From Vulgatibacter incomptus (GTDB taxonomy: Bacteria; Myxococcota; Myxococcia; Myxococcales; Vulgatibacteraceae): a stretch of DNA of 64,000 nt. The notes under the pieces were generated by a model that was not told the origin of the DNA, did no database searches, and saw only the letters and a list, made by a program, of their open reading frames with translations. This document shows, in pieces, positions 44,683 to 47,635 of the stretch. Numbering within the stretch: position 1 is the first letter of the stretch; each line of letters starts with the position of its first letter. The stretch lies in the NCBI RefSeq assembly GCF_001263175.1, contig NZ_CP012332.1, positions 3,101,501-3,165,500 of the forward strand, in the 5' to 3' direction. A program made the position numbers and the translations under genes.

Positions 44683-45150
44683 CTACTTGTGGTACGGCTC
44701 ACCTCGGGCGATGGCGAAGCCGCGGTAGAGCTGCTCCACGAGCACCAGCCGGGCGAGCCTGTGCGCCAGGGTCAGCGGAGAGAGCGCGAGGATGCGATCC
44801 GCCCGCGAGCGAACCGCTGCCGAGTGCCCTTCTGCCCCGCCGATGAGGAAGGCGAGGTCGCGGCCCCGGTTCATGGCGTCCTGGACGATCTCGCGCGAGA
44901 AGGCCTCGGAGCCCATGAGGTCGCCGCGCTCGTCGAGGACGACCACGCGCTCCGAGTCCTTGAGCCGGGAGAGGAGGGACTGCCCCTCCTCCTCCCGCGC
45001 ACGCTGCGGATCGATTCCGCCCTTCTTCGACGGCGGGAGCTCGACGAGCTCCACCGGGACGTAGCGGCGGATCCGCTTCAGGTATTCCGCGATGGCCGGC
45101 TCGAAGAGGCCCGACTTGTCGGCGCCGATCGAGAGGATCCGGACCTTCAT
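44683..45150 (-). CDS. rlmH: 23S rRNA pseudouridine-1915 N3-methyltransferase
   Basis: A 155-residue SPOUT methyltransferase. LDERGDLMGSEAFS, FLIGGAEGHS and the C-terminal HRLARLVLVEQLYRGFAIARGEPYHK are nearly diagnostic of RlmH, which methylates the pseudouridine in helix 69 on the assembled 70S ribosome. Its ATG overlaps the TGA stop of rsfS by four bases, the usual rsfS-rlmH order. The C-terminal extension expected for the knot is intact. Confidence 0.97.
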   Translation of the reverse strand: MKVRILSIGADKSGLFEPAIAEYLKRIRRYVPVELVELPPSKKGGIDPQRAREEEGQSLLSRLKDSERVVVLDERGDLMGSEAFSREIVQDAMNRGRDLAFLIGGAEGHSAAVRSRADRILALSPLTLAHRLARLVLVEQLYRGFAIARGEPYHK

Positions 45151-45803
45151 CCCACCGGGATGCGACGGGCCTCGGCCCAGAGGCCTTCCACGTCGTAGAG
45201 GGCGCGGGCCTCCTCGTAGAAGACGTGGGCGACCACGTCGCCGAAGTCGAGGAGGATCCAGTGACCGAGGCCGTGGCCCTCCACCCCGATGGGGCGGTGG
45301 CCGGCCTTCTTCATCTTCTCCTCGATGGAGTCGGCGATGGCGCCCACCTGGCGGTCGGAGGTGCCGGTCGCGATCACGAAGCAGTCGGCGTAGCCCGTGA
45401 GGCCCGTGACGTCGAGGATCACGACGTCCTCGGCCTTCTTGTCGAGGGCCGCCTGGGCGGCGATGTGGGCCGCCGCGAGGGCCGCTTCGGCGCCCTCCTT
45501 GGTGACCTCGGACCCAGGCTTCTTCTTCCGAACGGGGGCCTTCGCAGCGGAGGTCTTGGCCGTGGAGGCCTTCGCCCGGGCCGGCGCCTTGGTCCCGGCC
45601 GCCGCACGCGTGCGCTTCGCAGGCGCCGTCTTGGACGCCTTGGCGGCAGCGGGCTTCGCGGCCTTGGCCGACGCGGTCTTCGTCGACGCGGCCTTCGTGG
45701 TCTTCGAGGCCGCCTTGGCGGGGGCCTTCCGGGTGCTTGCCTTGGCGGCGGCCTTCTTCTCAGGCGCGGCCGCTTCAGGGGAAGTAATCTTGCGAGACGC
45801 CAA
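45147..45803 (-). CDS. rsfS: Ribosome silencing factor RsfS with a histone H1-like N-terminal tail
   Basis: The C-terminal 115 residues (KAEDVVILDVTGLTGYADC, FVIATGTSDRQVGAIAD, HWILLDFGDVVAHVF) are standard RsfS, which binds ribosomal protein L14 to block subunit joining in starvation. The first 100 or so residues are almost entirely Ala, Lys, Pro, Thr and Ser, similar to the AKP-rich tails of bacterial histone H1-like proteins. The TTG at 45803 is preceded by AAGGAG at a good distance; no ATG fits. The tail could bind RNA or DNA, or be a disordered tether. Coupled with rlmH. Confidence 0.92.
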   Translation of the reverse strand: MASRKITSPEAAAPEKKAAAKASTRKAPAKAASKTTKAASTKTASAKAAKPAAAKASKTAPAKRTRAAAGTKAPARAKASTAKTSAAKAPVRKKKPGSEVTKEGAEAALAAAHIAAQAALDKKAEDVVILDVTGLTGYADCFVIATGTSDRQVGAIADSIEEKMKKAGHRPIGVEGHGLGHWILLDFGDVVAHVFYEEARALYDVEGLWAEARRIPVG

Positions 45804-45949
45804 ACCGGCTCCTTGTGAGCGGACGATTCGGAGCCGCTCCGGCGCGAATGTAGCACGGCACCCCGAAAGCATCCGCCCCCGATCTTTGTTGGTATCGATG
45901 GGAACGCAGGGCTACATTCCAGCCCGGGTATCCCCAAGGAGAAAGTCCC

Positions 45950-47631
<1,682 letters not shown>

Positions 47632-47635
<4 letters not shown>

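Follow-up and report, generated by a model that had tools for sequence, protein, structure and literature searches.

Organization of the rsfS Locus

The window, a stretch of 64,000 nt from the Vulgatibacter incomptus genome (one contig of 4,350,553 bases), contains a ribosome silencing factor gene, rsfS, between rlmH and hflX. The features of the locus are as follows:

44683..45150, minus strand: rlmH (PF02590, E 5.8e-47), overlapping the rsfS stop codon
45147..45803, minus strand: rsfS, 218 aa with a TTG start, matched by both Pfam and NCBIfam profiles
45147..45479, minus strand: RsfS/Iojap domain, residues 109-218 plus the stop codon (from PF02410, TIGR00090, Foldseek, and conserved residues)
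45480..45803, minus strand: N-terminal Lys/Ala/Pro-rich tail, residues 1-108, predicted to be disordered (from composition, charge, AlphaFold2, and relatives)
45809..45814, minus strand: ribosome-binding site AAGGAG of rsfS, identified from sequence, 5 nt upstream of the TTG
45936-47635, plus strand: hflX, encoding a ribosome-splitting GTPase, with an apparent ATT start at 45950, eight bases after an AAGGAG

The tail-coding frame runs unbroken into the domain and has a GC3 of 0.87, which, together with similar tails in relatives, indicates that the tail is no chance open frame. The sequence-only reading had named a start codon between tail and domain as the objection to a fusion. The only in-frame ATG, GTG, or TTG codons are found at residue 1 and then from residue 128, inside the domain; a start between tail and domain was thus rejected, and the objection fails in this genome. 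An upstream ATG at 45872 was discarded as the rsfS start since it has no ribosome-binding site. A mis-joined neighboring gene was also rejected as the source of the tail, given the single continuous frame and the RsfS-joined tails of many relatives.

RsfS Domain and N-Terminal Tail

The domain is recognized by the Pfam profile RsfS (PF02410; residues 115-209, E 3.6e-32, 110.9 bits against a cut-off of 21.6) and the NCBIfam profile rsfS_iojap_ybeB (TIGR00090; E 5.3e-33, 113.1 bits against a cut-off of 56.9). The RsfS fold is present in the predicted structure, for which the best Foldseek matches include 4wcw, 2id1, and 6sj6 (E 1e-12 to 1e-10), with a TM-score of 0.88 by target length for Mycobacterium tuberculosis RsfS (4wcw). 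In Staphylococcus aureus, the RsfS residues pairing with uL14 are Glu70, Asp81, and Tyr98 (PMC7125091). Their equivalents, placed by their spacing to Trp182 and His193, are Glu175, Asp186, and Tyr203, which are invariant across an alignment of 15 RsfS sequences. Fold, uL14-contact residues, and the rlmH neighbor are thus shared with the RsfS/Iojap/YbeB family (PF02410, TIGR00090).

Preceding this domain, residues 2-108 consist largely of Ala (35.5%), Lys (20.6%), Thr (11.2%), Ser (9.3%), Pro (7.5%), and Arg (5.6%), with only three hydrophobic or aromatic residues. Composition and profile matches therefore bear out the original description of a tail of about 100 Ala/Lys/Pro/Thr residues ahead of a normal RsfS domain. 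The tail (residues 1-108) has a net charge of +23 and a pI of 11.3, compared to -7 and 5.0 for the domain. In an AlphaFold2 model based on the 15-sequence alignment, residues 1-100 have no secondary structure and a pLDDT of 51-60, versus 86-98 for residues 101-218, and we infer that the tail is disordered in the cell. The label ‘histone H1-like’ fits the composition but goes no further, as the tail has no SPKK-like motif and a Pfam search of the protein returned RsfS alone, with no globular H1 domain. That this polycation is able to bind RNA or DNA, as was also suggested, is a reasonable inference, strengthened by the conservation of the tail and the selection on its charge described below.

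RsfS is usually regarded as a minimal single-domain factor. The solved bacterial RsfS proteins matched here have a total length of 105-152 aa and lack the polycationic tail of about 100 residues. Chain G of PDB entry 28ye (Ribosome silencing factor S, 152 aa) has a short A/K/R-rich N-terminal extension (AGTPRKKAAAAGPRKTRAAAAP...) before the RsfS domain, about one quarter the length of the Vulgatibacter tail. The mitochondrial homolog MALSU1 also has a long N-terminal extension, with the domain starting around residue 97-103 in chains of 228-234 aa, but the match to Vulgatibacter RsfS is confined to the domain. The MALSU1 extension is largely a mitochondrial targeting region. As a disordered Lys/Ala/Pro-rich polycation, the tail resembles the KPAA-repeat regions of AlgP and PhaF and the tails of histone H1-like proteins. 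AlgP, however, combines a predicted helical domain with exact C-terminal KPAA repeats, whereas the RsfS tail is N-terminal and has no regular repeat. Our literature search turned up no account of an RsfS with a lysine-rich tail.

RsfS Tails in Related Genomes

The sequence-only reading had called for a comparison with RsfS of other Myxococcota. A search of 195 phylum genomes located RsfS in 182, and 100 phylum loci, including that of Vulgatibacter itself, were read for a lysine-rich 40-residue window ahead of the RsfS domain. The families were numbered, two of them with provisional labels read from kinship: ‘Myxococcaceae-like’ (f4) and ‘Anaeromyxobacter-like’ (f6). Tails occur in 23 of the 27 f4 loci and in 17 of the 21 f6 loci; in the four f6 misses (L007, L015, L049, and L050), the contig or fragment breaks off upstream of the domain before any start is reached, and all 17 untruncated f6 loci have a tail. 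Among the smaller families, tails were seen in f2 (1/1), f1 (1/2), f9 (1/2), and f3 (1/4). No tail was found in the 11 genomes of family f7 or in G001, the nearest relative, which belongs to the same family as Vulgatibacter. The tail is therefore dispensable to RsfS function. One f7 member (L046) has an RsfS open frame extending about 90 residues beyond the domain. Outside the order, 3 of 30 loci encode a tail, and a truncated fourth (L063) has an obvious one.

The sample from outside the phylum comprised 77 genomes with open-frame lengths, of which 22 loci were read along with 16 more with frames of at least 152 residues, the other 39 frames (149 residues or less) being too short for a tail of more than about 50 residues. 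Three of the 77 have tails, N-terminal in L155 and L180 and C-terminal in L173, where a lysine-rich tail of about 75 residues follows the domain instead of preceding it. A flag at L147 was left out of the count, as the 25 residues concerned have no in-frame start. In a tree of the domain, built on few alignment columns, well-supported branches force at least seven gains or losses of the tail. These sequence comparisons indicate that tails recur in most members of the two best-sampled related families and are not special to Vulgatibacter.

Lysine/Alanine-Rich Sequences in Other Proteins

As a control, 800 kb of the Vulgatibacter genome, sampled every 100 kb, was inspected for other proteins rich in lysine and alanine. 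Six more were found: a phosphoribosyltransferase, fumarase, RNase R, a dehydrogenase E1 subunit, topoisomerase I, and a 237-residue protein. Four of these are located as follows:

L103, 3505-6216, minus strand: phosphoribosyltransferase
L104, 11067-12329, minus strand: fumarase
L127, 10423-12924, minus strand: dehydrogenase E1 subunit
L134, 1663-4446, plus strand: topoisomerase I

The 237-residue open frame (L133, 4101-4811, minus strand) consists mostly of AKPAARK-type repeats, has no Pfam match, and represents an H1-like protein. With six other such proteins in 800 kb, these tails are a genome-wide, though uncommon, habit and extend beyond nucleic-acid proteins. With the RsfS tail alone as query, the genome yielded no match other than the tail itself. 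The fumarase tail was not seen among 30 fumarase loci of relatives. The hibernation factor HPF showed no tail in 30 loci (a few of them cut by contig ends, where the frame may be wrong); the flagged HPF sequences correspond to a basic helix native to HPF or, in L231, to a region well past the domain.

A published survey ranks myxobacteria with the bacteria that have the most low-complexity regions and places lysine-rich regions of this kind on proteins that bind nucleic acids (PMC6821194). This survey, which does not mention RsfS in its main text, makes a tail on RsfS less surprising.

Selection on the Tail

Most f4 and f6 tails are about 62-127 residues long with a net charge mostly between +19 and +26, values that are not corrected for kinship; exceptions in charge are L095 (+6), L055 (+30), and L059 (+36). 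Among close relatives, dN/dS is 0.08-0.72 for the tail and mostly 0-0.35 for the domain. In nine pairs, 12 of the 62 single-base amino-acid differences in the tail change the charge class, versus 40% expected (p = 5e-4), and the domain shows a similar, stronger depletion. As the substitution null is a simple one, with transitions weighted twofold and GC bias ignored, the depletion is moderate evidence that the charge of the tail, and not its sequence, is under constraint.

These data bear on the possibility that the tail is a nearly neutral, functionless accretion of low-complexity sequence, which genomes that readily accumulate such stretches would tolerate. The abundance of low-complexity regions in myxobacteria (PMC6821194), the six other lysine/alanine-rich proteins, some of them metabolic enzymes, and the tailless nearest relative would all suit such an origin. 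Against it stand a tail dN/dS below 1, the depletion of charge-changing substitutions, and the persistence of tails through two families, contrasting with the fumarase tail that relatives do not show. We consider neutral accretion doubtful, if conceivable.

Proposed Role of the Tail

We propose, with a probability of roughly 0.5, that the protein is a normal RsfS whose disordered N-terminal polycation acts as a non-specific electrostatic RNA anchor and lengthens residence on the 50S subunit. The acidic domain would dock on the 50S subunit at uL14 and prevent 30S joining, as established for the family and expected here by homology. The tail, with its charge of +23 and no fixed sequence, would lie on nearby 23S rRNA or other RNA through non-specific electrostatic contacts, which may raise the affinity and residence time of RsfS on free or maturing 50S subunits and slow its release. 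The site occupied by RsfS in S. aureus takes in 23S rRNA helix 95 and bL19, and a contact of RsfS with the rRNA backbone has been proposed; a basic tail at this site would therefore meet RNA. Retained uL14-contact residues, recurrent tails, dN/dS below 1, depleted charge changes, and the tailless HPF argue for the RNA anchor. It also fits a charge conserved without sequence and a tail that can sit at either end of the protein, as in L173. Against it count the tailless RsfS of G001 and of family f7, and similar tails on fumarase, dehydrogenase E1, phosphoribosyltransferase, and topoisomerase I imply that the tail need not be ribosome-specific.

In a rival reading, the tail would attach to DNA and hold RsfS, and with it 50S subunits, at the nucleoid; the sequence-only reading had suggested the nucleoid or rRNA as the tether point of RsfS. 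The H1-like composition is in line with a DNA tether, lysine-rich low-complexity regions are tied to non-specific DNA binding in the literature, and PhaF is believed to hold granules to the nucleoid through its KPAA domain. The tail has no SPKK motif and the protein no H1 domain, however, and in the cell RNA is a strong competitor for any polycation that binds without specificity, and the attached RsfS domain already puts the tail beside rRNA. A DNA tether is thus unlikely in our view. We give similarly little weight to the idea that, under nutrient stress or in development, the tail directs RsfS to polyphosphate granules or to starvation condensates. Although AlgP, with disordered KPAA repeats, is found at polyphosphate granules in starved Pseudomonas aeruginosa (PMC9239181) and RsfS is active in starvation, the RsfS tail has no exact KPAA repeat, and HPF, likewise a starvation factor, has no tail.

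Compared to these alternatives, RNA anchoring by the tail remains our preferred reading. A more speculative and still less probable extension would make myxobacterial RsfS a bridging factor. Its charge-tuned tail would collect silenced 50S subunits on the nucleoid, on polyphosphate, or on RNA-rich condensates and keep them in store until growth resumes after starvation or sporulation. The long polycation, retained in two myxobacterial families, is a naturally occurring case in which to examine how basic, disordered tails alter the binding of ribosome factors in starving, spore-forming bacteria.

Neighboring Genes rlmH and hflX

Co-regulation of rsfS with both neighbors had been suggested from the sequence, and the two genes differ in this respect. 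The rsfS stop and the rlmH start overlap as ATGA at 45147-45150, so that both are probably translated together and are likely to be co-regulated; rlmH lies directly downstream of rsfS on the same strand in 59 of the 100 phylum loci. In contrast, hflX is divergent from rsfS: it is read from the other strand and has a ribosome-binding site of its own. It therefore lies outside the rsfS transcript and shares at most an intergenic region with rsfS. It is found near rsfS in 3 of the 100 phylum loci, that of Vulgatibacter included.

The start of hflX is unusual. No ATG, GTG, or TTG precedes the conserved HflX N-terminus in Vulgatibacter, leaving the ATT at 45950 as the only plausible start. At this position, or one codon off, relatives have TTG (f4, f2), ATG (f6), ATT (G003, G008, G009), ATA (G001), ATC (G014, G019, G024), or CTG (G010). 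A standard start is absent in Vulgatibacter, G001, G014, and G010, as examined up to 40 codons upstream, and several of the other relatives have an alternative upstream start. We found nothing in the literature searched on hflX in connection with non-standard start codons. A known case of such start codons is infC, in which IF3 discriminates against AUU. The hflX start could be subject to an infC-like, IF3-sensitive start-codon control.
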